Below are positions 1 through 30,071 of a stretch of 32,354 nucleotides of DNA, piece by piece. Position 1 is the first letter of the stretch; each line of letters opens with the position of its first letter. Source of the DNA: Paludibacter sp. 221. GTDB taxonomy: Bacteria; Bacteroidota; Bacteroidia; Bacteroidales; Paludibacteraceae. A program made the translations under genes and the position numbers. The stretch lies in assembly GCF_010501035.1 (NCBI RefSeq), contig NZ_QVMH01000022.1, positions 1-32,354 on the forward strand, written 5' to 3'. A model generated the notes under the pieces. The model was not told where the DNA came from. It saw only the letters and a program-made list of their open reading frames with translations, and ran no database searches.

Positions 1-614
<614 letters not shown>

Positions 615-1313
615 CTATTGATTTATAACTTGTACGGTAGCACATGCCATAACTCCGGCAGTTTCAGTACGCAGCCGGCTATCTCCTAACGACACAGGCA
701 AAAAACCCTTGGATAACGCCATTTCAACCTCTTCTTTACTGAAATCTCCCTCCGGCCCGATAAGTATCAAAGAATCTGTAGTTTTTTTGCAAGCATCTCT
801 AAGCAACAGCTTTTTCTCATCATCGTAACAATGGGCTATGAAACTCTGTGAAGCTACACTATCCCTGACAAACTCCTCAAATTTCGCCAAAGGGTTAAGG
901 ACGGGGAAGTTTGATTTTTGCGACTGTTTTGAGGCCGATACTATTATCTTCTGTATACGTTCGGGCTTTATTACCTTTCGTTCCGAATACCTTGTGATAA
1001 CAGGCGTTATTGCATCAACCCCTATCTCAGTAGCTTTCTCTACAAACCACTCAAAACGTTCAATATTTTTGGTAGGAGCTACAGCCAGATGCAGTTTATA
1101 ATTACGCTTTCCTATTTCGGGCAGCACTTCTACAATCTCTACCAAGCAATGCTTAGGATGTGGTTGCACTACATAGGCTCTGAAAAAGCCCCCCCGCCCA
1201 TCTGTGATATTTATTTCACTACCCGCTTGCAAGCGCAACACCTTTACCGCATGCACCGATTCTTCTTCGGGCAAAACGGGGTTAATGGAAATATCCGGAG
1301 CGTAAAAAATCAT
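615..1313 (-). CDS. rsmE: 16S rRNA (uracil-1498-N3)-methyltransferase RsmE
   Basis: This cytoplasmic SAM-dependent SPOUT methyltransferase methylates N3 of U1498 in 16S rRNA. The 232-residue product has the family's usual size. It has an N-terminal PUA-like part (about residues 1-70) and a C-terminal SPOUT knot with the diagnostic GPEGDF (186-191) and LGDSRLRTETA (209-219) motifs. The frame could be opened by a TTG three codons earlier, but ATG at 1313 gives the typical family N-terminus MIFYAP. A terminator-like hairpin after folD ends only about ten bases before this ATG, so expression probably depends on read-through or an internal promoter. It is the last gene of the minus-strand housekeeping block. 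Confidence 0.95.
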   Translation of the reverse strand: MIFYAPDISINPVLPEEESVHAVKVLRLQAGSEINITDGRGGFFRAYVVQPHPKHCLVEIVEVLPEIGKRNYKLHLAVAPTKNIERFEWFVEKATEIGVDAITPVITRYSERKVIKPERIQKIIVSASKQSQKSNFPVLNPLAKFEEFVRDSVASQSFIAHCYDDEKKLLLRDACKKTTDSLILIGPEGDFSKEEVEMALSKGFLPVSLGDSRLRTETAGVMACATVQVINQ

Positions 1314-1318
1314 AGAAA

Positions 1319-1341
1319 ACAAAAATCCCCCGAAGGGGATT
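1319..1341 (-). terminator. Terminator between folD and rsmE
   Basis: Read on the minus strand, a 7-bp stem AATCCCC/GGGGATT closes a stable TTCG tetraloop and is followed by TTTTTGTTTTC. The T-run reaches almost to the rsmE ATG at 1313. It begins about 30 bases after the folD stop codon. It looks like a rho-independent terminator, or an attenuator for rsmE. Confidence 0.75.
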
Positions 1342-1370
1342 ATTATGATAAATTATTATTAAATAATCGA

Positions 1371-2258
1371 TTAAGAGTAAATCTCTTTTTTAGCTGCCAA
1401 AAGCGTATTTTTAAGCAACGACACAATCGTCATAGGCCCTACGCCACCCGGTACAGGAGTTATGTAAGAACACTTTGGAGCAACCTCGTCAAACTTCACA
1501 TCGCCGCTCAGGCGGAATCCGCTTTTCGTTTTATCCGAAGGAACACGTGTGGTACCTACATCAATCACCACAGCACCTTCTTTCACCATTTCGGCAGTCA
1601 GGAACTCAGGTGCTCCCAGTGCCGCGATAATAATATCGGCTTGCAAGCAGATATCCTTTAAGTTTTTGGTACGGCTATGGCACACTGTAACAGTAGCATC
1701 GCCAGGATAGGCTTTTTGCATCATTAGCAACGCTACAGGCTTTCCTACGATATTGCTTCGTCCTATCACCACACAATTCTTTCCGGAAGTCTCTATCTCA
1801 TATCGTTTCAGAAGCTCCAGAATACCCGAAGGAGTTGCCGATACATAACAAGGCAACCCTATAGACATACGCCCTACATTAATCGGATGAAAACCGTCTA
1901 CATCTTTGCGGTAATCAATAGCTTCAATCACTTTTTGTTCTGAAATATGCTTAGGTAACGGCAACTGCACGATGAAACCATCTATGTCCTCGTTGCTGTT
2001 CAGTTTATCAATCTCGGCAAGCAATTGTTCTTCGGTGATTTTTTCTTCGAAAGCAAGCTTTGTAGAAGTAAACCCTACTTGCTCGCACGATTTCACTTTG
2101 TGTGCCACGTACGTCTCACTTCCGCCGTCGTGACCAACAATGATTACGGCAAGATGAGGGCGTTTTTTTCCCTCTGCAATCATTTGCTTTACTTCTTCTG
2201 CTATTTCGGCTTTTACCTGGTCAGAAATAGCTTTACCATCTATTATTTTGTAGGACAT
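1371..2258 (-). CDS. folD: Bifunctional methylenetetrahydrofolate dehydrogenase/cyclohydrolase FolD
   Basis: This cytoplasmic enzyme interconverts 5,10-methylene-, 5,10-methenyl- and 10-formyl-tetrahydrofolate using NADP, feeding one-carbon units to purine and fMet synthesis. The 295-residue product is close to family length. The catalytic YxxxK is YVAHK (Y50, K54). QLPLP (98-102), DGFHP (121-125) and PGGVGPMT (270-277) mark the folate site and the C-terminal signature. ATG at 2258 is chosen over a TTG seven codons upstream because MSYKIIDGK fits the family start. It lies 83 bases after ffh in the same direction, so the two may share transcripts. A hairpin terminator follows. Confidence 0.97.
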
Positions 2259-6560: not shown

Positions 6561-6591
6561 AGAGATTGCCTGCCAATTACAAACAATCTCT
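6561..6591 (-). terminator. Terminator of the DUF4488 lipoprotein gene
   Basis: On the minus strand, AGAGATTG pairs with CAATCTCT over 8 bp around a 15-base loop, and TTTTTG follows directly. It lies about 33 bases past the stop at 6624 and separates the XRE/DUF4488 pair from the DUF6377 gene. Confidence 0.65.
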
Positions 6592-7141: not shown

Positions 7142-7975
7142 TTAATTCATCGGATTCCCATAAGGCACTTTCACCCAAAGTTCGTTAAACTTATTTCCTT
7201 CTTTCACGTAAACAAGTATAAGGTACTTATTCTGAATAATCTCATACTTCATCCTGTTATCTGACGCACTATAAGAAGGCGATGTAAACGAGCGGTCGAC
7301 ATATTCAATATATTCAGTTTCAGATATACTGTATTTACCATCGGCCGTGATATGCGTACCCTTGTTATTACGAATCATATTCGTAAAATTTCCGCATTTA
7401 TCAATAAACTTATAGGTAGAATACACATTAGGAACACTCCCCTTCAGCAACGCTTCTTTTCCTATCGCATCTTTGCTCAACTGCCAGACACCCTGTATAT
7501 CAAATGCTTTCATCGTTGTAACCGGATCGCTCGTTGTTTTCAAATCGTTAACCCATACTACTCCATTTTTAGCGTTCGCATCATTCCTTACATTTTTATC
7601 CCTTATTGCCGAAACAACTATTATCAATGATATTATAACAACAAAAAATGAAATGACCAAAATCCGTTCCGATAACGACAAGGAGCGGAAAAAGCCCGAT
7701 AGCTTTGAAAAAAAAGAATGCTGCTCTTCAATTTGCTGGTTCACAGCATCCTCTTTTAGCTGATCTTGTTGTCCCAATGTATTGAAATCCTCTACCGAGT
7801 AATCCAATGCGTTAAATATCATTTTAAGAGTGTAAAAACGAGGTGTCGCTTCGCCCGACTCAATCCGCTGCAAACTACGTATGTTTAAGTTACACTGCTT
7901 TGAAAGTTCTTCCTGAGTTAAACCTTTAGCTTTCCGAAGCTCAGCAATTTTTTTTCCTAATTCCGGTTGTTTCAT
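7142..7975 (-). CDS. Transmembrane XRE-family regulator with periplasmic DUF4488 sensor domain
   Basis: This 277-residue fusion starts with a cytoplasmic HTH of the XRE type (about 5-64; LTQEELSKQCNLNIRSLQRI). A linker follows, then one membrane helix (about 104-125), a second linker and a DUF4488-like domain (159-277, GVWQLS to NELWVKVPYGNP). There is no signal peptide, so the HTH is inside and the DUF4488 domain outside. An upstream ATG at 7996 is possible, but ATG at 7975 is preferred. It follows GGAGGGAGG at good spacing, rare in this window, and the predicted promoter -7 element overlaps the earlier ATG. It probably senses an extracytoplasmic ligand or the neighbouring lipoprotein and regulates genes directly, like a CadC/ToxR-style protein. 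No homologue with a known role was recognised. Confidence 0.85.
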   Translation of the reverse strand: MKQPELGKKIAELRKAKGLTQEELSKQCNLNIRSLQRIESGEATPRFYTLKMIFNALDYSVEDFNTLGQQDQLKEDAVNQQIEEQHSFFSKLSGFFRSLSLSERILVISFFVVIISLIIVVSAIRDKNVRNDANAKNGVVWVNDLKTTSDPVTTMKAFDIQGVWQLSKDAIGKEALLKGSVPNVYSTYKFIDKCGNFTNMIRNNKGTHITADGKYSISETEYIEYVDRSFTSPSYSASDNRMKYEIIQNKYLILVYVKEGNKFNELWVKVPYGNPMN

Positions 7976-7993: not shown

Positions 7994-8022
7994 CAAAAAT
8001 ATAGACTACTACAAGATTTCAA
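7994..8022 (-). promoter_or_regulatory. Predicted promoter of the XRE-DUF4488 gene
   Basis: On the minus strand, TATTTTTG (8001 down to 7994) is an exact TAnnTTTG, and a TTG (8022-8020) lies 18 bases upstream. Transcription would start near 7987. The leader would be only about a dozen bases and would carry the GGAGGGAGG ribosome binding site, supporting the start at 7975. Confidence 0.6.
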
Positions 8023-8064: not shown

Positions 8065-8217
8065 AATCATAACAAACTACATATAAGCATTTTAGAATAA
8101 CAAAAAGTACTACAAAAAGAATCTAAATTTATAAAGCTATTTTCCCAATTTCATCCATTCGCCGTCCCTATATACATATATAACGATTAAAAATAGAATT
8201 TATCACATATAAATGAT

Positions 8218-8248
8218 AAAAAATTGCCCCGCTAATTTGCGGGGCAAT
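8218..8248 (-). terminator. Terminator of the glycan operon after GH36
   Basis: A perfect 10-bp GC-rich stem (8223-8232 with 8239-8248) has a six-base loop. On the minus strand it is followed by TTTTTTA. It lies about 35 bases past the GH36 stop and closes the long minus-strand glycan cluster. Confidence 0.85.
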
Positions 8249-8283: not shown

Positions 8284-10479
8284 TTACTCCGCTGTAATTT
8301 CAATCACCCTGCTGTTTGTTTGTCCTGTTGTGAACACGTTCAATCCTATTTTCATCAGAAAATCGCCTGAGAATGTTTCTCCATTTCCCCTCATGTTGGA
8401 TTTACGTTCGGGAATAAGGTTGATTTCTTCTATTTTGTATTTTTTGTCAGGGTCAAGTCCTTGTAGCTTTACCGACATTGTTTTTTCACCCATGCGAGGG
8501 TGAATATCATAAGAAAACAAAACAGCTTTAGTTTTTTCTTCATTAGCATACATCACCGACATGTGGTTTGTCTCATAAGGAGAAACCAAACGATACTGGT
8601 CACCATCCAGAATAACAGGTTTCAGGCGTTTATAATCGGCTACAGCCTGTTGACAGAATTTCTGGTCGGTTTCGCTCATTTCGTGGGTGCGGATGTCAAA
8701 TCCCATTTTACACATCATAGCCACATCTACACGGAATTTTATACTGGTACGACGATTCCAGCTTGTTACGTGGGCATCCATCGACTTAGCCGGAAAAAAC
8801 TGTGAAAAGCCCCACTGTATGTAAATACGCTCGATAGGGTCGGTATTATCACTACACCAAAACTCGGTAAAGTACTTAAGCGATTCATAATCGCATCGTC
8901 CACCCCCTCCGGCGCAAAGCATCATCGGCAAATCGGGATATTTCTCGTTCACACGTTTGAACACATTCACCACCCCTCTGTTGTGGTCTATATACAACTG
9001 GTTTTGTTTTGTTTTCAGGTATGGAGAATAAATATTGGTTATAGGGCTGTTACAATCCCATTTAAGAAATGCTACATCCGGATTTTCACTCATAATATTA
9101 TCCACTACGCCAAAAACAAAATCCTGCACCTTAGGATTGCTCATATCCAGCACCAACTGGCTGCGATAATAATAAGGCTCACGGTTTGGCAAGCGTATTG
9201 CCCAATCGGGGTGTTTTTCAATCAATTCACTCTCAGGGCTAATCATTTCGGGTTCTATCCATATGCCAAATTTCACACCGTTTTCTTTGGCCTTTTCCAC
9301 CAAAAACGGAATTCCATGTGGAAGTTTGTCTTTTGTAACATCCCAATCCCCTAAAGTAGTAGTCGCTTTTTCGCGTGGGTATTTATTGCCAAACCAACCA
9401 TCGTCCAACAGAAACATATCAACGCCAAGCATCCTGGCCTCGCCCATAATATCTACCAGCTTATCCTCATCAAAATTAAACTGTGTTGCTTCCCAGTTGT
9501 TGAGCAGGGTCAGACGGTCACCTTTCCCATCTTTCAACTGGTAATTGCGCGCCCATGTGTGAAAGTTACGGCTTGCCTTGCTTGTGCCGTCTTTACTGAT
9601 TGTAAAAATAAACTCAGGCGTTACAAAATTTTCTTTTGGTTTCAGCTCATAGTTTGATGCATAAGGATTAATTCCCGATATAATACGCAGGTTACTTGAA
9701 TTGTCTACTTCAAATGTAAACTGAAAATTACCCGACCAGGCTAATGTACCAAGTACAACCGTTCCTTGTTGCTCTTGGGCTGGTTGCCCTAAACCAACCT
9801 GAAAAAACGGAGAAACGTGCATAGCGGCCCGCGATCCAAGTTTTGTTTCAAGTATTTTTTTGCCGAATTGTAATTGCTGGGTACTCATACGTGCTTCCAT
9901 AGCCCAGTCGCCGCTAAATTCAGTCAGGTAATAAGCAGGGCTTTCAAAATAAAGCATAGACGACGCATAACGGCTTATAGTCACAGGTTTCTTTTCGGTA
10001 TGGTTAATTTCAGTCCAGGTTTTTATTATGTTCTCTTTGCCGAAAGTATGATATACGAGCTTTACATTTACAGGATAAACGTCATCCTTCAAGTTGATAA
10101 CTGTTTCGGTCACGTTGTCGTCTATCTTATTTACTTCATGCGAAACATAACGAAAAATGGATGTCATATTTCCATCGTTATGCTGGATGGCAAAAGCAGG
10201 TTCGAAGAAATCTTCAGCCCCCGATGCCGGATACACTTCCCAACCACGAGCCGATACGCTTCCTTCGGAACCGCCTTTGAGGCTGAACGAAAGAGCTTTA
10301 AATTCTGATTCATTCATCAGTTTATCGCCCAGGTAAGCCTGATAAACACGCTTGCTTTGAGGTGCAACACGGATAACCAAGTCGATATCGTCAGTTGAGA
10401 TACGAATAAACTCAGACTGGCTTATTAATGGGAGAGAAAATAAACCAATCAAGAGAAATGATAAAAAAAACTTCTTCAT
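8284..10479 (-). CDS. Secreted GH36 alpha-galactosidase
   Basis: This retaining exo-glycosidase removes terminal alpha-linked galactose (some family members act on alpha-GalNAc). The 731-residue product has a signal peptide (about 1-20, ending LISQS), a beta-sandwich N-terminal GH36 domain (about 25-310) and the (beta/alpha)8 barrel with FLLDDGWFG (357-364). The nucleophile is predicted as D475 in KWDCN and the acid/base as D544 in SDNTDP. All key residues are present. It is the last gene of the cluster, 90 bases after the MGH1-like gene, and is followed by a strong terminator. It is a clear paralogue of the NPCBM-GH36 protein two genes upstream but lacks the NPCBM module. The exact substrate cannot be read from sequence. 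Confidence 0.93.
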   Translation of the reverse strand: MKKFFLSFLLIGLFSLPLISQSEFIRISTDDIDLVIRVAPQSKRVYQAYLGDKLMNESEFKALSFSLKGGSEGSVSARGWEVYPASGAEDFFEPAFAIQHNDGNMTSIFRYVSHEVNKIDDNVTETVINLKDDVYPVNVKLVYHTFGKENIIKTWTEINHTEKKPVTISRYASSMLYFESPAYYLTEFSGDWAMEARMSTQQLQFGKKILETKLGSRAAMHVSPFFQVGLGQPAQEQQGTVVLGTLAWSGNFQFTFEVDNSSNLRIISGINPYASNYELKPKENFVTPEFIFTISKDGTSKASRNFHTWARNYQLKDGKGDRLTLLNNWEATQFNFDEDKLVDIMGEARMLGVDMFLLDDGWFGNKYPREKATTTLGDWDVTKDKLPHGIPFLVEKAKENGVKFGIWIEPEMISPESELIEKHPDWAIRLPNREPYYYRSQLVLDMSNPKVQDFVFGVVDNIMSENPDVAFLKWDCNSPITNIYSPYLKTKQNQLYIDHNRGVVNVFKRVNEKYPDLPMMLCAGGGGRCDYESLKYFTEFWCSDNTDPIERIYIQWGFSQFFPAKSMDAHVTSWNRRTSIKFRVDVAMMCKMGFDIRTHEMSETDQKFCQQAVADYKRLKPVILDGDQYRLVSPYETNHMSVMYANEEKTKAVLFSYDIHPRMGEKTMSVKLQGLDPDKKYKIEEINLIPERKSNMRGNGETFSGDFLMKIGLNVFTTGQTNSRVIEITAE

Positions 10480-10569
10480 TTTAATAGTGTTTGATATTAT
10501 TGAGTTAATACTACTTTTTTAATACCGTCATTTAGGGTGATGATATCTATCAATGTACAAAAAATCACA

Positions 10570-12231
10570 TTATTTCACGATAAAATTATTCGTACCCGGT
10601 TGTACATCAAAAACAGAGGATTTATCATGAAACAGAACTGTCAGTTTATATGGCTTATCCGACTGAACTGTCAGAAACGCTTTTGCTTTTTCATTTCTGC
10701 GTTCATTACAAATAACAGAAGTAGTGATGTCCGCCATACGAAGATTTTCAACTCCATGCCTGTCAGTACGCCGTAGGTCATAAGTCAAAATTTTATCCGC
10801 TCCATTTAAGCGGAACCCAAGCACATTCTCAATTAACAAGGCAATAGGTCCCACACCAGTCCAACCCACAAAATTGGTTCTGCAAAACTTGGTCGAATCA
10901 TAGTCATGTGTTCCCGGAACAAATTTTCCGTCTATTTTTTCAGGAGCATAATTCTCCCACAAAGTGCCCGTTGTCAGAAACACCTGATACAACCCTTCTA
11001 TATATCGCTCCGAAGCCTCTTTTGCAAAAGCGTTATCGCCTACCTGCTCAATACCTTTAATTGTAGCATAATTTGTAGGTGCCCAAACCGCACCTTGCCA
11101 ATAGCCACCGTTAGCATGATATTCGGGGTATGATGCCGCCAACGAAGGAAAAGGAATATCTTTCCAGAACAAAGCAGGATTTTTTAAATTGTTTATCAAG
11201 GCTTCACTTTGCCCGGCAGATGTAATTTCGGCTAACATAGGCCAGAAACAGGCTATTGTTTTCCATTTGGTTTGCACTCCGGCAGTATCTACATCGTAAT
11301 ACAGGCCATCTTCTTCATTCCACATCCAATAATTAATCCTGGCTGCAATCTCGGCAGATTTCTTTTTATATTTCTCTGCTTTTTCAATGTAGCCTAACTC
11401 CTCACAAATAACAGCAATGTTATTGCATTGAATTACCATCTGGCTCGACATGTCTACCCAGCCCTGATGGTCGGAAGCCCAATGGGTCCTTTTTCTGCCA
11501 TTGTCTCTCGGAGTATTATCCATCCCCGAAGCCTGCCCATTACTCCAATACAATTTATGCGGCGTATCCTCTCCTATCCTTGCTTTTTCTACAAATTCAA
11601 AGTATTTTTCCAAAACCGGAAGTATGTGCTGAAAACGAGACTTATCGCCTGTCACTTTGTAATTTTCAACCTCAGCCCAGCTAAACAAGGGAGGATTGAT
11701 TAAATTGGAATTATTGTCGTCAAACCAGTCTTTTCCTGTTATTTCATCTATCCTGCGGCAGATACTGCCATTTAATTTTTGACGGCAATAAAAGTTATCA
11801 AAGGACCGGATGCCGGGAAAAATATGATGTGCATATTTTCCAAACATTGTCATAAATATAATATCCCACTGAAAAATAGAATTATCAAAGGCCTCGTCAT
11901 ACCAATTCGAAACAAAAGGAGAACCCTCTACCGGAGCTTTAATATTGTTGAACAGCAACTGCCAGCATTTATCATACATATCTACCCACCCCTTATTATT
12001 ATCCAATATAGGCTTGGGTAGCAAATGTTTATTATCTTCATAAGAAGGAATTGGTTGCGGCACGTATTTTTTCTTATAAAAATATGCTCCCCTCTCCTCC
12101 GGTTGAGTTATATTATTATTTGAAGAATTATGATTTATCCCTTCCGAAGCGGGAAATGAGCCATTTGCCTGCAAAAAAAATGTAAAGCAAAAAAGCAGGG
12201 ATAGTATTAATGATTTTTTTTCCATTATCAT
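10570..12231 (-). CDS. Secreted MGH1-like (GH63-type, clan GH-G) glycoside hydrolase
   Basis: This 553-residue secreted protein has a predicted (alpha/alpha)6-barrel of the MGH1/GH63/trehalase type. After a signal peptide (about 1-24) comes a low-complexity Asn/Ser linker (33-42). The catalytic region covers about 85-470. Motifs include SGMDNTPR with D238 as likely general acid, HQGWVDMSSQ (255-264), GGYWQGAVWAPTNY (375-388) and LWENYAP with E426 as likely general base. Members of this group act by inversion on alpha-glucosides, mannosylglycerate or other alpha-linked sugars, so the substrate is open. It lies 18 bases after the NPCBM-GH36 gene and 90 before GH36, so it is surely in the same operon. 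The start could be either of two ATGs two codons apart. Confidence 0.82.
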   Translation of the reverse strand: MIMEKKSLILSLLFCFTFFLQANGSFPASEGINHNSSNNNITQPEERGAYFYKKKYVPQPIPSYEDNKHLLPKPILDNNKGWVDMYDKCWQLLFNNIKAPVEGSPFVSNWYDEAFDNSIFQWDIIFMTMFGKYAHHIFPGIRSFDNFYCRQKLNGSICRRIDEITGKDWFDDNNSNLINPPLFSWAEVENYKVTGDKSRFQHILPVLEKYFEFVEKARIGEDTPHKLYWSNGQASGMDNTPRDNGRKRTHWASDHQGWVDMSSQMVIQCNNIAVICEELGYIEKAEKYKKKSAEIAARINYWMWNEEDGLYYDVDTAGVQTKWKTIACFWPMLAEITSAGQSEALINNLKNPALFWKDIPFPSLAASYPEYHANGGYWQGAVWAPTNYATIKGIEQVGDNAFAKEASERYIEGLYQVFLTTGTLWENYAPEKIDGKFVPGTHDYDSTKFCRTNFVGWTGVGPIALLIENVLGFRLNGADKILTYDLRRTDRHGVENLRMADITTSVICNERRNEKAKAFLTVQSDKPYKLTVLFHDKSSVFDVQPGTNNFIVK

Positions 12232-12249
12232 AATTCTTAAAATACCGCC

Positions 12250-14844
12250 TTATTTCACATACAGATACACCGATGCACTGTCAAAACGTTTCTTACAATT
12301 AAAATCAAGCCCTTTTTCCATCAGTTCTTTTCCTGAAAGTGTTTTGCCATTCTGAATACAAGCGGCAGCATCTGCCGAGTCTATATTCACTTCGTCAATT
12401 GTATAATTTAAATCGGGATTTAAGCCTTGCAATGCTACATTTAAGCCTTCGCTCGAATCGCGAACCTGATAAACAAAAACAACAGCTTTTTCCTTTTTAT
12501 CATTCTCCACATACGAAACAACCGAACGCGATGTTTCGTAAGGCGATACTAAACGGTATAAATCGCCCAACTGTACTACAGGGCGTAGCTTTGTTTTATA
12601 CGCTTCTAATGATCGTTTTGTTATTTTCTTTTCCTCTTCCGTCATTTTCAATGGATTGGCATCCATACCCAAACAGCCACTCATCGCTACGTCAAACGCA
12701 AATTTAAATGGTTGATGCCCCATGTGTGTTACGTGTGCTCCATGCGTTTTTGCAGGAAAAACATGTGACGCTCCCCATTGAACGAACACTCGTTTCAACG
12801 GGTTAGTGTTATCACTTGTCCAGAACTCATGGAAATAGCGCATTGCTCCATAGTCGCAACGTCCGCCACCGGCAGCGCAAAGCATCATTTGCAAATCAGG
12901 ATTCAAGCGAACCGATTCACTGAATATCCGGTATAGCCCGCGAGTATATTCATACCACAAATGCTGCTGTTTATCTCCAAGATATTGCGAATACGGATTG
13001 TGAAACGGGCTATTGCAATCCCATTTTACAAAAGTAATACCCGGATTGCTTTTCAGTATATTATCAAATGCGCCGATACAAAAATCCTGCACCTGAGGAT
13101 TAGTCAAATCCAACACATACTGCCCACGTTGCAAATGCGGGGTACGCTGAGGGTCAGTCAGCAGCCACTCAGGATGCTCTGTTACAAGATGCGCTTCCGG
13201 ATTGGCCATTTCCATCTCTACCCAAAGCCCAAAATCAATACCTACCTTTCCGGCCGCTTCTATCAGAGGCTTCATGCCATCAGGGTGCATTTTTGGGGTA
13301 GGATTCCATTCGCCAAGTACACGCGCCTTATCCGGCAATCCGAACCAGCCATCGTCAAGCAAGAATAGTTCAAAGCCTAAATCATGGGCTGGCTGTAAAA
13401 ACGGAATAATTACATTATCGGCAGTATTCATTCCGGTAGCTTCCCAGTTGTTGAATATTGTACGAAGTTCCGTTTCCCCATCGCGTATACCATAGGCACG
13501 AGCCCAACGGTGCAGATTGCGCGAAGCCTCGCCCTTACCCTGCGTAGAATAAGTATAAATCAGCGAAGGGGTGATATAACGCCGACCTGCCGGCAAAGTA
13601 TAATCGGCCGACCAAGGGTTAGTACCCGAAACAACTGATAAATAGCCGTAAGTGGTCAGTTCAAATTTCAGTTGATAATTGCCCGACCAAGCCAGCGTCC
13701 CGGCAAGCACTTCGCCCGAAGTTTCAGTAGCCTGTTCGTTCAAAGTAATCATAAAATGCGGCTGCCGTCCGTTTGAGCTGGTTATCCCCCAACGGTTTTC
13801 TATCACTTTTGAGCCTACTGTCAGCGGATATTCGTCTACATTAAATTCGTTCATCCAGTCGCCTGTAAATTGTGTCAACCAGTAATTGCGCGTACGGCTA
13901 CGCAATGTCAGAGCTGACGATGCGGCCTGTTTTATGGTCACATCGCCTTCCTCATTATGATAAACTTCTGTCCATTGCTCTATTACATTTTGCTTTGCAT
14001 AGGCTTTGTAATACAGCTCGGTATAAAGCGGATATACAGAATCTTTGAGTTTAATGTATGTAAGTGTTATATTATCATCCACCTTTGTAGTCTTATGCTC
14101 TACGTATTTCAACATGGTAGATGTGTGCCCATTATGATGTACAACATGTAAGGCAGGTTCTCCCCAATACACTATTTGTTTACCGCTTTGTATAGTTGAG
14201 TAAGCCTGTTCTTTCTGTACACCCGAAGCAAAAGTAACTTCCAGACCTGCTTTTCGGCCTATGTATTGTTGCATGAGGTTGTCCTCAGCATCCACCGACA
14301 ACAACAACAAATTATTGTCCGTACTGATTTCTATTAAACGACGGCTCGATACTGCAACCGGTTTACCCTCTTTCATATCAAAGTAAGCCTCTGCCCAGTC
14401 TGCATGATCATTACTTATGCCATCGCCGCCCGACAAAGCCTCAAGTACTAATGTTTGCACCCCATTCAAGTTAATGTTAACTTTTTTAGGTTTGTCTCCT
14501 TTACGCATCAGGGGCGACTTGAACACCTCTTTATCGTCGGCCGTTATCCTAAACACAACAGACCCAGCCGAAGTAACTTCATCATCTACACCTACAAGGG
14601 CTGTAAAACGAGCGGCACGCCCTTCCAACGCTATCATCATTTTACTATCGGCATGCGTGCCTACTCCGTTCCGGTACACTTTGCCACCCATCGTCAGCGG
14701 GTTTCCATCTATGCTCCTATTAGCTTTGGCCGAGCTCCAGCCTGTAGTCATCATACTTAGGTTAAGTTCACTCAACGGGATTCGATTTTGAGCCAGCAGC
14801 ACTACCGGCAACAGGATAAAAAGGCTAAGAATAATTTTTTTCAT
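12250..14844 (-). CDS. Secreted NPCBM-GH36 alpha-galactosidase
   Basis: This 864-residue exo-alpha-galactosidase carries an extra carbohydrate-binding module. A signal peptide (1-19, ending VLLAQ) is followed by an NPCBM-type beta-sandwich (about 22-156; note YRNGVGTHADS and the following charged strands). Next come the GH36 N-terminal domain (about 165-450) and the catalytic barrel with FLLDDGWFG (494-502). The predicted nucleophile is D609 in KWDCN and the acid/base D678 in SDNTNP. NPCBM modules in related enzymes bind galactose-type sugars, suggesting anchoring to an insoluble or polymeric substrate (inference). It starts 56 bases after a DUF4488 lipoprotein gene and runs tightly into the MGH1-like gene. 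Confidence 0.93.
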   Translation of the reverse strand: MKKIILSLFILLPVVLLAQNRIPLSELNLSMMTTGWSSAKANRSIDGNPLTMGGKVYRNGVGTHADSKMMIALEGRAARFTALVGVDDEVTSAGSVVFRITADDKEVFKSPLMRKGDKPKKVNINLNGVQTLVLEALSGGDGISNDHADWAEAYFDMKEGKPVAVSSRRLIEISTDNNLLLLSVDAEDNLMQQYIGRKAGLEVTFASGVQKEQAYSTIQSGKQIVYWGEPALHVVHHNGHTSTMLKYVEHKTTKVDDNITLTYIKLKDSVYPLYTELYYKAYAKQNVIEQWTEVYHNEEGDVTIKQAASSALTLRSRTRNYWLTQFTGDWMNEFNVDEYPLTVGSKVIENRWGITSSNGRQPHFMITLNEQATETSGEVLAGTLAWSGNYQLKFELTTYGYLSVVSGTNPWSADYTLPAGRRYITPSLIYTYSTQGKGEASRNLHRWARAYGIRDGETELRTIFNNWEATGMNTADNVIIPFLQPAHDLGFELFLLDDGWFGLPDKARVLGEWNPTPKMHPDGMKPLIEAAGKVGIDFGLWVEMEMANPEAHLVTEHPEWLLTDPQRTPHLQRGQYVLDLTNPQVQDFCIGAFDNILKSNPGITFVKWDCNSPFHNPYSQYLGDKQQHLWYEYTRGLYRIFSESVRLNPDLQMMLCAAGGGRCDYGAMRYFHEFWTSDNTNPLKRVFVQWGASHVFPAKTHGAHVTHMGHQPFKFAFDVAMSGCLGMDANPLKMTEEEKKITKRSLEAYKTKLRPVVQLGDLYRLVSPYETSRSVVSYVENDKKEKAVVFVYQVRDSSEGLNVALQGLNPDLNYTIDEVNIDSADAAACIQNGKTLSGKELMEKGLDFNCKKRFDSASVYLYVK

Positions 14845-14900
14845 AAAGGAGAGATTTTCTTTTCAAGGATAATTTAAAATTTTGATTGTATTTGTTTTTT

Positions 14901-15446
14901 CTATTCTACCGAAAAAGGACGACCTAAATTAACCTTCACCCACAGTTCGTTAGTCTTACGGCTCATAACAGTCCCATCAGGCATCGGGATTTTATTCTCG
15001 TAGGTCAGCACCATACGGTTTTCATCTAAAAACATATAAGACAACTCATTAGTAGCACCATCGTGCAGAGGATTGGATGTAGATCTTTCTACATATTCAA
15101 CATACCTATTTTCAGAAGGGTATATCTTATATATCCCAACAGCAGTCTGAACTGATTTAAAGGGGATAAAGCCCTCATTTCCTTTCAGGCTATTAGAAAC
15201 TGATAGGGAATTATGAGACAAAAAGAGATTAGTAAACGTTCCGTCGCCGCTTATCAGCTTAAAAAACGGCAAACGAGTATTATTAAACATATAAACCAAC
15301 TCGTCCACACTTCCGGGGTAATCCATACACATTTGCCATACACCTGTCAACGGATGTTCGGTATATTTGCTTTTGTTATTTCCCGAGGAGCAACTTGCAC
15401 CAAACAAAATAGTTACAAAAAGAACGAAATAAAGTTGTTTCTTCAT
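14901..15446 (-). CDS. DUF4488-like lipoprotein
   Basis: This 181-residue predicted lipoprotein has lipobox FGASC (C19) followed by a Ser/Asn/Lys linker. Its single DUF4488-like domain runs from GVWQMC to NELWVKVNLGRPF. Compared with the 155-residue copy at 6624 it has an insertion of about 25 residues in the middle. This is shared with the copy at 21022, as is the stretch RLPFFK followed by SGDG and NLF. It lies between another DUF4488 gene (54 bases upstream) and NPCBM-GH36 (56 bases downstream). Function is unknown; a periplasmic ligand-binding or chaperone-like role is only inference. Confidence 0.75.
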   Translation of the reverse strand: MKKQLYFVLFVTILFGASCSSGNNKSKYTEHPLTGVWQMCMDYPGSVDELVYMFNNTRLPFFKLISGDGTFTNLFLSHNSLSVSNSLKGNEGFIPFKSVQTAVGIYKIYPSENRYVEYVERSTSNPLHDGATNELSYMFLDENRMVLTYENKIPMPDGTVMSRKTNELWVKVNLGRPFSVE

Positions 15447-15500
15447 GACATAGCTTATTTTAGTTTATAATTGAGAGACTGTTTTTAAATATATATCCAC

Positions 15501-16004
15501 CTATTTTATACTATCTGCCACATTGTTTTTTGAGACTTCAAAAGGATTGCCATAAGGAACTTTCACCCACAGCTCGTCCACTTTCTCATTAATAATAAGC
15601 CCTTCATAATCTGTCTTCGTAGGATAAGAAAGTTTCAGGTATTTTCCATTTATCAGTTCACACTGCATCACGTTTTTATAGTTATCATGCAGCGGGTTAG
15701 TGTACGATTTTTCCACACACTCCACATACTCGCTCAGAGAAGCTACTTTATAAGTACCATACACAGTGATGTAAGTATTGCGCGACAGTATCATATTGGA
15801 AAACCTGCCGTTATCAGAAATAATTTTATACTGCGGCATCCGTGCATTTTCATAAGGGGCTATAGTAGGCATACCGTCGTACGAAGTACCACATAGCTGC
15901 CATATCCCTACAAAATCGGAAACTACCGGTACTTTCTTGGTTTTATCATTACACCCGGCTAAAAATAACGCCGCAAAACATACAAAAAACACAATCCTTT
16001 TCAT
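15501..16004 (-). CDS. DUF4488-like lipoprotein
   Basis: This 167-residue predicted lipoprotein has lipobox FLAGC (C18). The DUF4488-like domain shows GVWQLC-type opening residues (here GIWQLC), the central VECVEKSYTNPLHD segment and the closing DELWVKVPYGNPF. The C-terminus extends about 14 residues beyond the domain. It follows the DUF4832 gene after a 76-base gap that contains a hairpin, so it may begin a sub-operon with the next DUF4488 gene and the glycosidases. No catalytic motif is visible. It is one of five DUF4488 copies here, and the ligand is unknown. Confidence 0.75.
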   Translation of the reverse strand: MKRIVFFVCFAALFLAGCNDKTKKVPVVSDFVGIWQLCGTSYDGMPTIAPYENARMPQYKIISDNGRFSNMILSRNTYITVYGTYKVASLSEYVECVEKSYTNPLHDNYKNVMQCELINGKYLKLSYPTKTDYEGLIINEKVDELWVKVPYGNPFEVSKNNVADSIK

Positions 16005-16047
16005 TTCTCTAAAAAATAATTAATGCCTACTAAAAACAGTTTGAGGG

Positions 16048-16072
16048 AGGGCATGAGACAAGCCCATGCCCT
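16048..16072 (-). terminator. Hairpin after the DUF4832 gene, weak terminator or processing site
   Basis: AGGGCATG (16048-16055) pairs with CATGCCCT (16065-16072) around a nine-base loop. It lies just after the stop at 16081 in minus-strand direction. The T-run that follows is interrupted (CCCTCAAACTGTTTTTA), so it may only reduce transcription or stabilise an mRNA end inside the cluster. Confidence 0.5.
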
Positions 16073-16080
16073 TGCTATTA

Positions 16081-17646
16081 CTACAATGTTGCTGTTCCTA
16101 TTATATTCACAACTCTGGTTTTATCTTTATTAGTCCAATGAGTTGCTTTTCCGTTGTCTGTCGAGAATTTAATCTGATATTCGGGCAAATCTTTTATCGA
16201 CACCTCATTGTCCAACACAGTCAAGCCTACTTTATATGTTCCTGCTGCAACCTGAGGATTTACACTACCCGATATTGTATGTACAAGCAATTCGTCAGGC
16301 TTATCCACAGCCCAAGGCTGCCATGCTTTCGGGTTCACATCATCCAGTTTTATTTCTTTGGCTATCTGGTTGTTCGAATCTATCAACACCAAAAATACCG
16401 ACTTCGGGTTATGTACGGTAGCAAATCCGGTGTTAGTTACACGAATATCGTATTGCAACTTTTCTCCGTCCTTATTAAAAGTTGCTTCTTTTACATTGAG
16501 GCGATAACCTAAATGGTCGCGAACGAACTGATAAAACGAACGAATTACAAACTTACCATCTTCTTTAAAATAATCCTGATCGAAGAAAATACCCAGACGC
16601 TCCAATTTTGCAGGATAAACCTTTACAGTTCTCCAATACTTGATATTGTTGTAAAAGTTTTGTGTTATATCCATCGCCACATAGTGGTGCAATTTCAAAA
16701 TCGGGAATAAACCATCTGTATCCAACATAAAATCGAGCCCCCATGTTGGGTCGGTTTTTCCTTCGTGAGGTACCTCGCCACTTACATAAGCGTCAAAAGA
16801 TTCTTTTGCCACTTGTTTGTATTGGTCATCTTTCGGGCAACCAAAATCGCTTCCTCCACATGCCATTGGGTGTTGGCCTCCGGTAAAGTAGTCATTATTA
16901 AAACCAATACGATTATAATCATCGGCACTTATCTCCGGCTTTAAGCCATTTTTACGAGAACAATAACGCATCTCCATACCATAACCTTCGGGGATACCGG
17001 CAAGTAAGGCTTTCATTATAGCATTGTTCTCCGAAGTAGAAAAAGAGGGGGTCCATTCGCCCCATTGCCCGATAAACCCGGACTGAATAACTGAGATTAC
17101 ATCAATATTTTCCGTTATCACCGGAGCCAATTGTTGCGCATGCTTCAATGTTCTTTCAGCCGTAGGATAAAGGTTTTTGGGCAATGTATGCTCATTACGA
17201 TAAGCAAAACGTAGAATTGCTTTATAACCACTGTCGCGCAACGTTTGGAACAGTGTTTTTATATTATTAATTGCCGATTCGGGTATAACGTCAACTTCGC
17301 GAAATTCCTGCAAATACATATACAATTGAGTAAGTGTAATGCTGTCTTCTTCTGTTTTCAGTTCTTCAGTTCTTGTACGGATAAACCCATCAGGATAATA
17401 TTCAAAATCTTCGTCTACTTCCAGTATTTGTCCTACTCCTGAGCCATATGGGTTAAACATAGTTTCAGGCGTGCCGGCTGTAATCACAAAGTTACATTCC
17501 AGATGAAGTCCTCTGTCCGGATTTCTCAGAGCTTCTTTACTTACAATATCTTCGGATGCTTTTGATGACAGAAACAGGCTCTGAGCCATTAAAAAAGAGG
17601 AAGAAGATATTATCAAGATAAAAAATAAATTAATCAGTCTTTTCAT
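16081..17646 (-). CDS. Secreted DUF4874/DUF4832 protein (copy 1)
   Basis: This 521-residue secreted protein has a signal peptide (about 1-22). The N-terminal part carries NPDRGLHLE (42-50) and GQWGEW (193-198) within what looks like a TIM-barrel-like fold, as in DUF4874. The C-terminal part (about 250-510) fits DUF4832 and ends in a beta-rich domain. The family is found in polysaccharide-degrading Bacteroidota, but I know of no proven activity. The acidic residues around GEW could be catalytic, but that is speculation. It starts 15 bases after the ricin-like gene. It shares clear similarity over its full length with the copy at 19432, including identical DHLGYRLNV and DSNNQ segments, so the two arose by duplication. 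Confidence 0.8.
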   Translation of the reverse strand: MKRLINLFFILIISSSSFLMAQSLFLSSKASEDIVSKEALRNPDRGLHLECNFVITAGTPETMFNPYGSGVGQILEVDEDFEYYPDGFIRTRTEELKTEEDSITLTQLYMYLQEFREVDVIPESAINNIKTLFQTLRDSGYKAILRFAYRNEHTLPKNLYPTAERTLKHAQQLAPVITENIDVISVIQSGFIGQWGEWTPSFSTSENNAIMKALLAGIPEGYGMEMRYCSRKNGLKPEISADDYNRIGFNNDYFTGGQHPMACGGSDFGCPKDDQYKQVAKESFDAYVSGEVPHEGKTDPTWGLDFMLDTDGLFPILKLHHYVAMDITQNFYNNIKYWRTVKVYPAKLERLGIFFDQDYFKEDGKFVIRSFYQFVRDHLGYRLNVKEATFNKDGEKLQYDIRVTNTGFATVHNPKSVFLVLIDSNNQIAKEIKLDDVNPKAWQPWAVDKPDELLVHTISGSVNPQVAAGTYKVGLTVLDNEVSIKDLPEYQIKFSTDNGKATHWTNKDKTRVVNIIGTATL

Positions 17647-17661
17647 GATAGTTCCGATTTA

Positions 17662-19398
17662 TTATTTAACCAATACTTTTGCTACTTTACCATCCGCTTT
17701 TACCAGATAAACTCCCTCCGGAAGCTCATAATCTTTATTCACCTGTATTCCGTTTATATTCCAAACTGTAAAATCGTCACAGCCAACTACAATAATTTTC
17801 CGATTCCGGGTATAAACAACGATATTATCACTATCTACCGACGGAATATCTGTTGTAATCTCCCCAGTATGTACAAAAGTCCAAGCAAATCCCGAATTCT
17901 TAGAATTTTTAATGTATACCTCAGGGTAAGTAGATGTATTATTACCTACATACAGGTATCTCGTAGCACCATCCTTTTCTTTGCCCGATATTTCATATTG
18001 CATGTCGCCTATGTAATTCAACAACCAACCGTCGCTATCTGTAAAATCGGTGGTATATTGTACATAGCTGAAAATACCCTCCTGTACCGAGTTGGTCTGT
18101 ATTATATTGCCGGTTGCTTTGTTTACAAATTGAACACGTTCATCGGCAGGGTCTGTACTTACTTTTACAGCCTTCCAATACTGAGATTTATTTTTTTTAT
18201 CAACATCTTCAATCGAGAACTTCACATAAGGCTTGCCTTGAGAGGCAACGTCTGTGATAGCTTTGTCTTTATAGTTCTCCTGAGTATTTGTAATAAAATA
18301 CCACACTGATTTTTCGTCGGTACTTATTTCTACATTAGGGTCTTCGTATGCTACAAAGCGGAAATAAGAATTACTCTCGGTATTCCATTGTGTATCAACA
18401 AACATGATGACAAAATCACGAACACCATCGGCCGAGTTGGCTTGGTGAGCATACACCTCAGCAGCTTTACCTCCCGTTGGTGGTACGGTAGCAACTATCT
18501 GACAATAGTTCTTATTCACCCTACTAAACTTCCATTTTGTTTTAGGCGCATCGCTGACAGTTGTAATGTTAATATTTCTGGGTGCAGCAGCATAAGATAT
18601 CTCCAGTTTTTTTCCGGTAGCTTTATTTATTATATCGTATTCTTCGCCGGTTTTCTCAAAACGCCACAATTGCGGGTCAACATCTATTGGTTTAATTGAG
18701 GTTGCTGTTGGCCGTCCGTACACTTCATCTCCTTCTACAGTATAAACCCTGTTTGCCCGCACTCCTTCGCCCAACACCTGAATATGATACCAAACAGGAT
18801 TGTCGGCGCTACTATCTTCGGGCAAAAAGTCGGAGTCATTATCCAGATTTTCGGCCAATATAAACGAAAACTGCGAGTTAGCGGTGTTATTATATGCACT
18901 CGATTCGAACATAACTACATAATTACGGCTCCCGTAATCATTTGCCTGATGTGCATATACATTAGAATCACCTCCCCCCGAAGCTGCTTTAGACGATTTA
19001 ATATTATAATAATCATCATATGCCTCGAAACTAAAGGTAGCCGATGATTCGGTAGCAAGCGCTGCATGGCTAATCGACTTGGACGAGTCATATGCGATAT
19101 CAAGCTGTTTTCCGGTTGCTTTATTTATAACTCTGTATTGCGAACCGGTTTTCTCGAAACGCCACCACTGGGTATCCTTTTGCGATTGGTCGTCAGTGTA
19201 GATTACCGCACGTCCATATACTTTCGTATCATTTGCAATAGTTGTGAAAACTCGTCCCGCACGCTCTCCTTCGCCGGTTACTTGTATATAATACCAAACC
19301 GGACTATCAGCCGTGCTGGTTTCTGGCAACTGAGCTTTAATCTCGGGTATAAAAATCAAAGCAAGCAACAAAATAAAATAGAATACTGACCTTTTCAT
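17662..19398 (-). CDS. Secreted protein with three ricin-like repeats and a T9SS-like C-terminus
   Basis: This 578-residue secreted protein has a signal peptide (about 1-22). Three related repeats of about 160 residues start near 26, 196 and 362, each opening with (S/N/K)xVWYxI. Within them INKATGK and VYAHQAN recur. The repeats look like RICIN-type beta-trefoil carbohydrate-binding domains. The last 60-70 residues resemble a type A T9SS sorting domain, with a short beta-strand series ending LPEGVYLVKADGKVAKVLVK. No catalytic domain is seen. It probably binds glycans outside the cell and helps the co-transcribed DUF4832 proteins, which flank it at 15 and 33 bases. The third repeat is the most divergent. 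Confidence 0.75.
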   Translation of the reverse strand: MKRSVFYFILLLALIFIPEIKAQLPETSTADSPVWYYIQVTGEGERAGRVFTTIANDTKVYGRAVIYTDDQSQKDTQWWRFEKTGSQYRVINKATGKQLDIAYDSSKSISHAALATESSATFSFEAYDDYYNIKSSKAASGGGDSNVYAHQANDYGSRNYVVMFESSAYNNTANSQFSFILAENLDNDSDFLPEDSSADNPVWYHIQVLGEGVRANRVYTVEGDEVYGRPTATSIKPIDVDPQLWRFEKTGEEYDIINKATGKKLEISYAAAPRNINITTVSDAPKTKWKFSRVNKNYCQIVATVPPTGGKAAEVYAHQANSADGVRDFVIMFVDTQWNTESNSYFRFVAYEDPNVEISTDEKSVWYFITNTQENYKDKAITDVASQGKPYVKFSIEDVDKKNKSQYWKAVKVSTDPADERVQFVNKATGNIIQTNSVQEGIFSYVQYTTDFTDSDGWLLNYIGDMQYEISGKEKDGATRYLYVGNNTSTYPEVYIKNSKNSGFAWTFVHTGEITTDIPSVDSDNIVVYTRNRKIIVVGCDDFTVWNINGIQVNKDYELPEGVYLVKADGKVAKVLVK

Positions 19399-19431
19399 TT
19401 GATTGTTTTTTTGGGTAATTTATAGTGTTTT

Positions 19432-20979
19432 TCAAAAAGTTATATTTCCAATAATATTTACCATACGGGTTGTATTTTTCCAATGGCTTACCTTACCGTT
19501 ATCCGTTGCGAATTTGACACAATATGCAGGATTATTCTTTATCGATTCGTAGCTATCCGGAATCCAGATACCAACCTTATATGTTCCTGCAGCTACATTA
19601 GCTTCGACCGAACCGGAAAGGGAATGAACCAATAAATCGGCTGGTTTGCCTTTAGCCCAAGGCTGCCAGTCGCGAGGCTTAACATCATTAAGCGGCAACT
19701 CTTTCACAAGCTGGTTGTTTGAATCAATCAGAACAAGATAAACCGGTTTAGGATTGAGCACTGTAGCAAATCCCGTATTGGTTATTTCTATATTATATTT
19801 TAATTTACTTCCATCTTTTTGGAAAGTAGGAGTATTTACAACATTTAAACGGTAACCTAAATGGTCGCGCACAAACTCATAGAAGGAACGCACTACAAAT
19901 TTTCCGTTTTCCTTGAAATAATTCTCATCAAAAAATATATTATTCCTCTTCAACAGTTCGGGTTGTACCTTTACCGTTTTCCAGTAAGTAATGTTATCCT
20001 TGAAATTCTGAGTAATATCCATCGACGAATAATGATGGTCTTTCAGCACTTTCAAAACCGTAAGCGGATCCATAAAAATATCGAAACCCCACGGCGGACC
20101 TTCGTTGTAAGGTATCTCTCCACGCATATGATAGGTAAATGAAGTCTCGGCCACATGGTTATAATCACTACTATACATGCACCAGTCGCTACTTCCGCAG
20201 TTCTTTAGCCCTGTAGTAAAGTAATCGTTACAAAACCCGATGTAGTTCATCTGGTCGGCAGATAAAACTGATTTCAAATCATTACGGATATCAATATAGC
20301 GCACCACCATACCATAGCCTTCGGGTATGATATTGAACATGGTTTTCGCTATTGTATTATTATTAGTTGTCGAAAACCGGGGAGTCCATTCGCCCCATGT
20401 ACCCAGCAGCCCTACTTCGACAACAGATACAACATCCCAATTGGCCTGAATCAAAGGTTTCAACTGCTCCAAATGCCCCATAATGCGGTCGAAAGTAGGA
20501 TTGTCTCCCGAATGGCCATTGCCAATGGCACCATTATCACGACTGTAGGCAAAACGCAATATAGCCTTTACATTATGTGTACGCAAACCGTTAAACAGCG
20601 TTTGTATATTATCCAAACCTGCTTGGTTTATGTCTTTATCCCAAAACGAGGTTAAATATATGTACAACTGAGTAAGGGTAATGGCATCTCCTTCCGACTG
20701 AAAGTCTTCATTACGGGTATCCATGAAACCATCAGGATATTTCTCACTTCCAACCTGCCCCTGACCTGCTCCACGTCCATAGGGATTCGGGATATATCCA
20801 ACCTCATCGGTAGCCTGATAGATAGACTCCAGATGAAACCCCCTATCAGGATTCCAAAGAGGTGTCTTATGCACAATATCCTCCGAACCCATCGAAGCCA
20901 AGAACAAATTTTGCGCTTGCATTAACGGCATAAGCATAAACACGCTTAATGCAACAATAATAATTTTCTCTATTTTCAT
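19432..20979 (-). CDS. Secreted DUF4874/DUF4832 protein (copy 2)
   Basis: This 515-residue secreted paralogue of the protein at 16081 has a signal peptide (about 1-23). NPDRGFHLE lies at 43-51, GTWGEW at 193-198, and the C-terminal beta-rich part closes at VNIIGNITF. The position of both motifs is conserved to within a residue between the copies, so gene structure is intact in both. It is the second gene of the cluster, 42 bases after a DUF4488 lipoprotein gene and 33 before the ricin-like gene. As with copy 1, an extracellular glycan-related role is inferred from the neighbours only. Confidence 0.8.
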   Translation of the reverse strand: MKIEKIIIVALSVFMLMPLMQAQNLFLASMGSEDIVHKTPLWNPDRGFHLESIYQATDEVGYIPNPYGRGAGQGQVGSEKYPDGFMDTRNEDFQSEGDAITLTQLYIYLTSFWDKDINQAGLDNIQTLFNGLRTHNVKAILRFAYSRDNGAIGNGHSGDNPTFDRIMGHLEQLKPLIQANWDVVSVVEVGLLGTWGEWTPRFSTTNNNTIAKTMFNIIPEGYGMVVRYIDIRNDLKSVLSADQMNYIGFCNDYFTTGLKNCGSSDWCMYSSDYNHVAETSFTYHMRGEIPYNEGPPWGFDIFMDPLTVLKVLKDHHYSSMDITQNFKDNITYWKTVKVQPELLKRNNIFFDENYFKENGKFVVRSFYEFVRDHLGYRLNVVNTPTFQKDGSKLKYNIEITNTGFATVLNPKPVYLVLIDSNNQLVKELPLNDVKPRDWQPWAKGKPADLLVHSLSGSVEANVAAGTYKVGIWIPDSYESIKNNPAYCVKFATDNGKVSHWKNTTRMVNIIGNITF

Positions 20980-21021
20980 TATATATTATTTATTTTGTAT
21001 TTATATAAATCATGATTTTAA

Positions 21022-21567
21022 TTACATGAATCCCGCATTAGGATTTCCTCCCTCGAGCCTAATCCAAAGCTCTTTCAATACCCGGTTGACTACCTGCCCC
21101 GTTGCACTTTTGTTTAATGTATACGAAATAATCATAAGATTATCACCTACAAATTCGTAGGTTAACTCATTGTCAACACCATTGTGCATGGGGTTTGTAT
21201 ACGATTTTGCAATAGATTCCACATATCTGCCTTTTCCCGAAACATGGTAGGTGCCATACGCCGTTATAGACGATGCCCGTTCGGGATTCATTACATTAGC
21301 TTTTCCAAAATCGGTGTTGGGGATGACATAAAAATGATTGAAAGACATAAAAAGATTGTTGAAATTACCGTCAGAACTCAACACTTTAAAAAACGGCAGC
21401 CGTTTGTCTGATAATACAGCAACGGGGTCCATGTTTTCGGACACAGTACCACACATTTGCCATACGCCAACAAGTTTAGGATCGGTTTTCCTTACATTTT
21501 TCACCGAAGAACAGCTTGCGCATAGCAACGTGAACAGTAATAAAAAAATAAGTGATTTGTTTTTCAT
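21022..21567 (-). CDS. DUF4488-like lipoprotein, first gene of the glycan cluster
   Basis: This 181-residue predicted lipoprotein has lipobox LCASC (C19) and a Ser/Val/Lys linker. The DUF4488-like domain runs from GVWQMC to KELWIRLEGGNP. It shares the mid-domain insertion and the RLPFFK/SSDG/NLF stretch with the copy at 14901. It is preceded by a terminator hairpin and a possible promoter, so it probably starts the transcription unit running down to about 16081 or 8284. The only cysteines are in the leader, lipobox and GVWQMC motif, so no metal site is suggested. Confidence 0.75.
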   Translation of the reverse strand: MKNKSLIFLLLFTLLCASCSSVKNVRKTDPKLVGVWQMCGTVSENMDPVAVLSDKRLPFFKVLSSDGNFNNLFMSFNHFYVIPNTDFGKANVMNPERASSITAYGTYHVSGKGRYVESIAKSYTNPMHNGVDNELTYEFVGDNLMIISYTLNKSATGQVVNRVLKELWIRLEGGNPNAGFM

Positions 21568-30062: not shown

Positions 30063-30071
30063 ATAAAAACC

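Follow-up and report, generated by a model that had tools for sequence, protein, structure and literature searches.

A putative membrane-tethered XRE-type regulator with a DUF4488 outer domain, its lipoprotein paralogue, and the Bacteroidota scaffold family behind it

A single open reading frame of Paludibacter sp. 221, P0001, joins an XRE-type helix-turn-helix (HTH) domain through one predicted membrane helix to a DUF4488 domain, and is followed by P0002, a lipoprotein built from the same outer domain. These observations on the domains and the pairing, first made from the window (the whole 32,354-nucleotide stretch of contig NZ_QVMH01000022.1 analyzed here), are confirmed, and the accompanying interpretation of P0001 as an undescribed sensor is partly supported. 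We propose, with moderate confidence, that P0001 is a membrane-tethered one-component regulator with a ligand-sensing barrel, that P0002 is its partner, and that the adjacent glycan locus is under its control. The apparent novelty lies in how the parts are combined and in the family underlying P0001. The locus offers a testable role for DUF4488, in which a DNA-binding domain would directly read out the state of a ligand-binding barrel, and its interest is raised by a family of proteins with swappable outer domains and a probable nested start.

Domain architecture and predicted fold of P0001

The P0001 reading frame is exact, running from an ATG at 7975 to a stop at 7142 on the minus strand (Table 1). 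The original prediction placed an XRE HTH, a single hydrophobic helix and a DUF4488 domain in one chain, and Pfam searches, hydropathy and a structure model bear this out. The C-terminal half matches DUF4488 (PF14869) with 49.9 bits against a cut-off of 27, and Lipocalin_4 is a marginal match inside the same region (22.8 against a cut-off of 22.4). At the N-terminus, HTH_3 and other Cro/C1-type Pfam models match instead of Trans_reg_C, for which P0001 has no match at E 0.001; Trans_reg_C is presumably the Pfam name of the CadC/ToxR-type HTH.

The AlphaFold2 model of P0001 was built on a 22-row alignment that drew on window proteins and on loci found in a genome-contig scan for relatives. The mean pLDDT is 86.6 and the pTM only 0.46, so the relative placement of the domains is not predicted. 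The N-terminal half consists of HTH helices (residues 3–56), a helix at 61–98 and a helix at 101–137 that contains the hydrophobic segment. It is followed by a low-confidence linker (138–153) and eight strands between residues 162 and 269, which form a predicted barrel as in solved DUF4488 proteins. In structure comparisons, the modeled barrel matches 4gzv_H with Z 15.6 (rmsd 2.3, 110 residues), 4iab_B with Z 14.7 and 4i95_A with Z 14.4; 4iab carries the deposition title ‘putative monosaccharide binding protein’. These DUF4488 proteins of Bacteroides share family and fold with the outer half of P0001, but are single-domain depositions of at most 142 residues with no HTH in their chains. The HTH fold resembles those of C.AhdI, SinR and the P22 c2 repressor (Z 11–12.6).

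P0001 contains one strongly hydrophobic segment, whose best 19-residue windows begin at residues 105–106 (Kyte-Doolittle mean 3.19). Hydropathy and model helix 101–137 both agree with the membrane helix that had been claimed. By reading, the N-terminus is the HTH itself and no signal peptide precedes it, again as predicted. With a single helix, the HTH and the barrel should lie on opposite sides of the membrane. We infer that the HTH is inside because a DNA-binding domain needs the cytoplasm, and that the DUF4488 domain is outside because the four stand-alone DUF4488 proteins of the window carry lipoprotein-type leaders (by reading). Toward the HTH, the helix is flanked by 2 K/R and 1 D/E, and on the other side by 4 K/R and 2 D/E, so the positive-inside rule lends this assumed orientation no support.

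Table 1 Features of the P0001 locus in window coordinates
Feature	Position	Strand	Basis
SusR-family glycan utilization regulator, downstream neighbor of P0001–P0002	4868..6487	-	NF058541 559.5 bits, cut-off 480
Inverted repeat AGAGATTG/CAATCTCT, then T-rich DNA; candidate terminator after P0002	6561..6591	-	
Stand-alone DUF4488 lipoprotein P0002	6624..7091	-	DUF4488 65.3 bits; lipobox FIGC by reading
HTH-membrane helix-DUF4488 putative regulator P0001	7142..7975	-	277 aa; ORF, Pfam, model, structure matches
DUF4488 lipocalin-like domain, P0001 residues 160–272	7160..7498	-	profile and structure match
Predicted membrane helix, P0001 residues 104–124	7604..7666	-	Kyte-Doolittle mean up to 3.19; model helix 101–137
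Long helix linking HTH to membrane, P0001 residues 61–98	7682..7795	-	structure model
HTH_3 (XRE/Cro-C1) DNA-binding domain, P0001 residues 10–64	7784..7948	-	Pfam 45.6 bits, cut-off 23
TAnnTTTG box (TATTTTTG), candidate promoter element of P0001–P0002 unit	7994..8001	-	motif position
Palindrome TTTATCA-N8-TGATAAA, candidate operator	8199..8220	.	single exact copy in window
Terminator-like hairpin closing upstream glycan operon	8223..8248	-	hairpin search and terminator scan
Probable operon just upstream of P0001, nine genes	8284..21567	-	family matches; gaps 15–90 bp
DUF4488 lipoprotein	14901..15446	-	profile match; leader by reading
DUF4488 lipoprotein	15501..16004	-	profile match; leader by reading
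DUF4488 lipoprotein	21022..21567	-	profile match; leader by reading

The P0002 lipoprotein and the glycan locus

P0002 lies 50 bp downstream of P0001 on the same strand, and the two reading frames do not overlap. It is 61% identical to the P0001 barrel. In a comparison of five DUF4488 relatives, the others share 37, 35, 30, and 26% identity with the barrel, the within-window proteins being those at 37, 30, and 26%. The claim that the lipoprotein at 6624 is a stand-alone copy of the P0001 outer domain and its closest relative therefore holds, at 61% against 37% for the next. A hairpin upstream (8223–8248) and an inverted repeat downstream (6561–6591) suggest that P0001 and P0002 are probably one short, co-transcribed unit, and P0002 is the only gene that shares it with P0001. 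The inverted repeat has 15 nt between its arms and is not in the terminator scan, whose loop limit is 8.

A profile search of the Paludibacter genome for DUF4488 returned six matches in five genes, all within the window. The P0001–P0002 unit sits between a glycan operon and the SusR-type regulator. The enzymes of the operon are a GH36, an NPCBM-GH36 and a trehalase/MGH1-like glycoside hydrolase, and its non-enzyme genes encode three DUF4488 proteins, two DUF4874/DUF4832 proteins and a ricin-type lectin. All are likely regulated neighbors of P0001. Genes for M60 peptidase and GH2 beta-galactosidase lie beyond this operon, and M60 peptidases together with galactosidases may point to host-glycoprotein glycans. 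The two DUF4874/DUF4832 proteins (16081–17646 and 19432–20979, minus strand) flank the lectin between DUF4488 lipoproteins, an arrangement of interleaved paralogues in one probable operon. On the far side of the window (28632–31577), two plus-strand genes have only below-cut-off ricin-type lectin, LRR_5 and metallophosphatase matches.

Candidate control elements accompany the unit. The TAnnTTTG motif, known from Bacteroides promoters, has 38 matches in the window against 38.6 expected. As this is chance level, only the position of the box at 7994..8001 is suggestive. A sigma-70-type promoter scan was set aside since Bacteroidota promoters differ. The palindrome upstream of the unit is a weak candidate operator, with 8 matches at up to three mismatches in the window against 5.2 expected.

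In our proposed scheme, P0001 would hold its XRE-type HTH in the cytoplasm, cross the inner membrane with one helix and expose the DUF4488 barrel to the periplasm. The ligand of the barrel would be small, and most likely something freed by the neighboring glycan-degrading enzymes, such as a sugar. Binding would alter the pairing of barrels and thereby the dimerization of the HTH on DNA, and this switch would set expression of the 8284–21567 glycan operon, of the SusR gene or of the unit itself; P0001 probably controls the adjacent glycan locus. P0002 may act as a partner by delivering ligand, pairing with the receptor, or competing. Against a regulatory reading stand an orientation unsupported by flanking charges, a weak palindrome and a promoter motif at chance level across the window.

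P0002 could be no partner at all but just one of the four DUF4488 lipoproteins of the glycan locus. P0001 would then stem from a duplicate that an HTH-membrane gene captured, and would act by itself as an ordinary one-component sensor. We consider this possible, though rather unlikely. Four stand-alone DUF4488 genes lie in the window, and L166, from another genome of the order, has three tandem DUF4488 proteins (424–1872, plus strand) with no HTH gene in the 3.3 kb covered. A neighboring stand-alone paralogue for every receptor was considered as a rule and rejected, as none of ten related single-helix loci with long flanks had an adjoining outer-domain copy (best other-ORF E-value 0.074). Nonetheless, the adjacent P0002 is by far the closest to the P0001 barrel of all DUF4488 proteins in the window and alone shares its short unit, which speaks against this account.

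Relation to known membrane-bound regulators

Transmembrane transcription regulators (TTRs), among them ToxR and CadC, are a known class that combines a DNA-binding domain and a membrane helix in one chain, and single-pass forms are described as the commonest among those surveyed, with Bacteroidota among the enriched groups (PMC10269533). P0001 likewise has both elements in one chain, according to hydropathy and the model, but differs in its XRE-type HTH and DUF4488 outer domain; a term search of the main text of the same survey finds neither ‘XRE’ nor ‘DUF’. By its architecture, P0001 is by definition a TTR, a putative one as to orientation and activity.

The pairing also has precedent. In co-component systems, as described in PMC9214523, a membrane-bound regulator is paired with an adjacent lipocalin-like periplasmic protein, usually, not universally, with overlapping reading frames. 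In VtrA/VtrC, the signal of a lipocalin-like barrel passes through an HTH protein bound to the membrane (PMC4933562). VtrA/VtrC, ToxR/ToxS and P0001–P0002 have the same order of parts, first the membrane-bound HTH protein and then a small lipocalin-like protein of the periplasm with a membrane anchor, and here too the downstream gene encodes an exported lipocalin-like protein (leader by reading). The parts differ: VtrA has a CadC/ToxR-like HTH and an alpha-beta sandwich as outer domain, whereas P0001 has an XRE-type HTH and a lipocalin-like barrel; the partner P0002 is a lipoprotein and a paralogue of the P0001 barrel; and the two genes stand 50 bp apart rather than overlapping. We do not file P0001–P0002 as a co-component system because its HTH is not of the CadC/ToxR type and the usual gene overlap is lacking. 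VtrC was not among the 50 structural matches listed for the P0001 model, an absence that excludes nothing.

By analogy, our best reading is that P0001 would work like VtrA/VtrC, built from different parts. This would carry the co-component idea, described in enteric bacteria, to Bacteroidota. The original prediction that no described system has this layout stands in part. The combination of parts seems new, and we found no paper in the open-licence literature searched that names DUF4488. Judged by the titles listed, that literature also gave nothing on an XRE-type layout of this sort in Bacteroidetes, on internal translation starts in TTRs or on DUF4440 joined to a transmembrane HTH protein, and only the TTR survey bore on XRE and lipocalin domains in membrane-bound transcription. 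The general layout, on the other hand, is known from the TTR class (PMC10269533) and from co-component pairing (PMC9214523).

A scaffold family with exchangeable outer domains

The HTH module of P0001 recurs with two kinds of tail: one consists of multiple membrane helices, the other of a single helix that leads to an outer domain. Among 204 loci counted (135 with the HTH motif), the single-helix kind comprises 28 distinct genes including P0001. This count covers the loci collected, apart from several order-level HTH matches without a locus; it includes L157, entered by reading since its helix missed the hydropathy threshold. Two loci of the 80 best relatives, L114 and L139, yielded no ORF. 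The outer domains of the 28 members are of at least six kinds. The SnoaL/DUF4440-like kind accounts for 19/28, 15 by BLAST clustering (including the truncated L008) and L045, L052, L053, and L200 by reading. Pfam searches on four such members gave DUF4440 above cut-off in L091 and L037; in L162 both SnoaL_2 and DUF4440 fall slightly short of their cut-offs, and L086 matches neither. L042 and L046 share an outer domain of unknown type, and L157 and L159 another (no Pfam match at E 0.01 for L157). L156 and L181 have a carbohydrate-binding-like domain, a likeness seen by reading only. L179 (691–1920, minus strand) joins the same kind of HTH and the junction (see below) in frame to a cell-wall amidase domain, Amidase_3 (146.9 bits), which suggests an enzymatic instead of a sensory role for some outer domains. 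Both L179 and L181 were found by searching with the junction-bearing protein L091, whose HTH is 66% identical to that of P0001 over the first 65 residues.

The HTH-helix-SnoaL/DUF4440 proteins of Bacteroidota (such as L037, L091 and L130), for which we found no published name in the open-licence literature searched, resemble P0001 in having the same HTH, a single helix and a C-terminal outer domain. They differ in the outer domain, and in a signal-peptide-like helix and a conserved internal ATG that are absent from P0001. As judged from sequence, Bacteroidota reuse the scaffold of HTH and membrane segment as a module, and we reject the view of P0001 as a unique oddity.

In 27/28 single-helix members, an in-frame ATG that is part of a conserved junction, roughly DLFNLKTNTMKK, marks the beginning of the helix. 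P0001 is the sole exception, and the junction occurs in no multi-helix member among the loci collected. The ATG is followed in 25/27 by a signal-peptide-like stretch with an A/G-Q site, which P0001 also lacks. Synonymous codons across the junction are unusually uniform: in 25 aligned genes (L008 and L200 left out), their summed entropy is 6.86 against 12.12 expected (sd 0.46) under a null of each gene's own codon use, and 0/1000 draws were as low (z -11.3). Nine HTH windows of junction length, taken as a control without L179, gave z values of -1.8 to -5.1, so gene relatedness explains part of the uniformity but not the excess. Upstream of the junction ATG, adenine is found at -3 in 22/25, at -6 in 17/25, at -12 in 25/25 and at -13 in 21/25. 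Adenine at these positions, in the same numbering, is described as promoting translation in Flavobacterium johnsoniae (PMC6847099). The junction pattern, searched with up to two mismatches in 295 order genomes, gave 12 matches in 10 genomes. By position, eight lie in HTH genes already collected. Of the remaining four, one is a further HTH-SnoaL gene and three are plain gene starts that lack an upstream HTH and belong to proteins that look exported. The gene of L200 was listed by protein search, and its DNA was obtained only via the junction pattern. A second start that would give the outer domain alone in these relatives is well supported by sequence.

The signal-peptide-like helices with an A/G-Q site in these 25 relatives, together with an amidase in L179 that is hard to view as a sensor, lend some support to an account in which the P0001 barrel senses nothing. 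The membrane anchor would chiefly keep an XRE repressor at the membrane, or processing would part the HTH from the barrel, with autoregulation by the HTH only. We regard this as improbable for P0001, which has a plain anchor with no A/G-Q site and an intact, well modeled DUF4488 domain.

The strict fusion is rare. Full-length P0001 matches were confined to its own genome among 200 family genomes, and none other was found among 393 order genomes or among the 4 genus genomes, whose three other members are 87–89% complete. With the strict fusion in one genome only, conservation cannot vouch for P0001 function. DUF4488 itself is present in 17/395 phylum genomes and 10/393 order genomes, and no other HTH-DUF4488 fusion was noticed among these matches. 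For this survey, neighborhoods were read at nine phylum loci, seven order loci and the gene of L069 itself, and the remainder were judged by open-frame length; at the order loci, ORFs of at least 260 aa were read by their first 60 residues only. A DUF4488 lipoprotein from a different genome of the family, L012, is located after a beta-galactosidase gene. Two proteins from genomes of this family, L010 and L011, are the same as proteins of two named Paludibacter MAGs (L104 and L122), in line with a host related to Paludibacter. A phage origin of P0001 was rejected, as tblastn against a phage collection gave no match. A strict fusion known from one genome might be suspected of being a chance join with no function or a product of misassembly. 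This is very improbable given that P0001 lies well inside the 32 kb stretch with no stop or frame break, both halves exceed their cut-offs, and relatives carry other outer domains on its scaffold.

A more distant fusion was found in a Bacteroidales MAG. Among the best 80 of 85 relatives from the scan of genome contigs, L108 alone aligns with P0001 through the outer domain (residues 1–270, 32%). It is not a Pfam DUF4488 member, with no match at E 0.01 and a direct hhalign value of only 49.7% against the DUF4488 set. The link is indirect: hhalign gave 98.9% for L108 against a distant set drawn from DUF4488 search matches, and 97.5% for that set against the DUF4488 set. Modeled as a lipocalin-like barrel, the outer part of L108 matches 4qrl, 4gzv, and 4iab (Z 13.6–12.9) as well as VtrC 5kew_B (Z 11.0, rmsd 3.6 over 99 residues); P0001 and P0002 were among the sequences aligned for this model and may bias it. 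The L108 outer domain is a distant lipocalin-like relative of DUF4488. A 66-column HTH tree, with multi-helix members thinned to 18 at random, is poorly resolved (7/45 inner branches starred, 20 open), and a single origin for P0001 and L108 was not rejected (p-AU 0.077, 21 chosen rows). A fusion unique to one genome had been named in advance as refuting the sensor proposal. The strict fusion is nearly so confined, but the distant L108 fusion exists and the scaffold recurs widely.

The nested start and the separate P0002 gene may serve one principle, although the Amidase_3 member L179, with its suggested enzymatic outer domain, counts against this. We tentatively suggest, as a possibility short of our main proposal, that P0001–P0002 is an unbundled form of an apparently unnamed Bacteroidota family with ‘one outer domain, two forms’, HTH-tethered and free exported, in which outer domains are freely exchanged. 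The free copy would come from the nested start in 27/28 members and, in the window, from the separate lipoprotein gene P0002. Tethered and free copies would compete for or share the ligand and so set the sensitivity of the regulator. If the nested start is true across the family, some Bacteroidota ‘HTH-domain proteins’ also encode a hidden secreted protein.

Two junction-bearing members come from named isolates, L157 from Parabacteroides goldsteinii and L159 from P. gordonii, and offer a practical test system. By reading, the short two-helix HTH members L010, L011, and L041 also have a Met near the start of their first helix.
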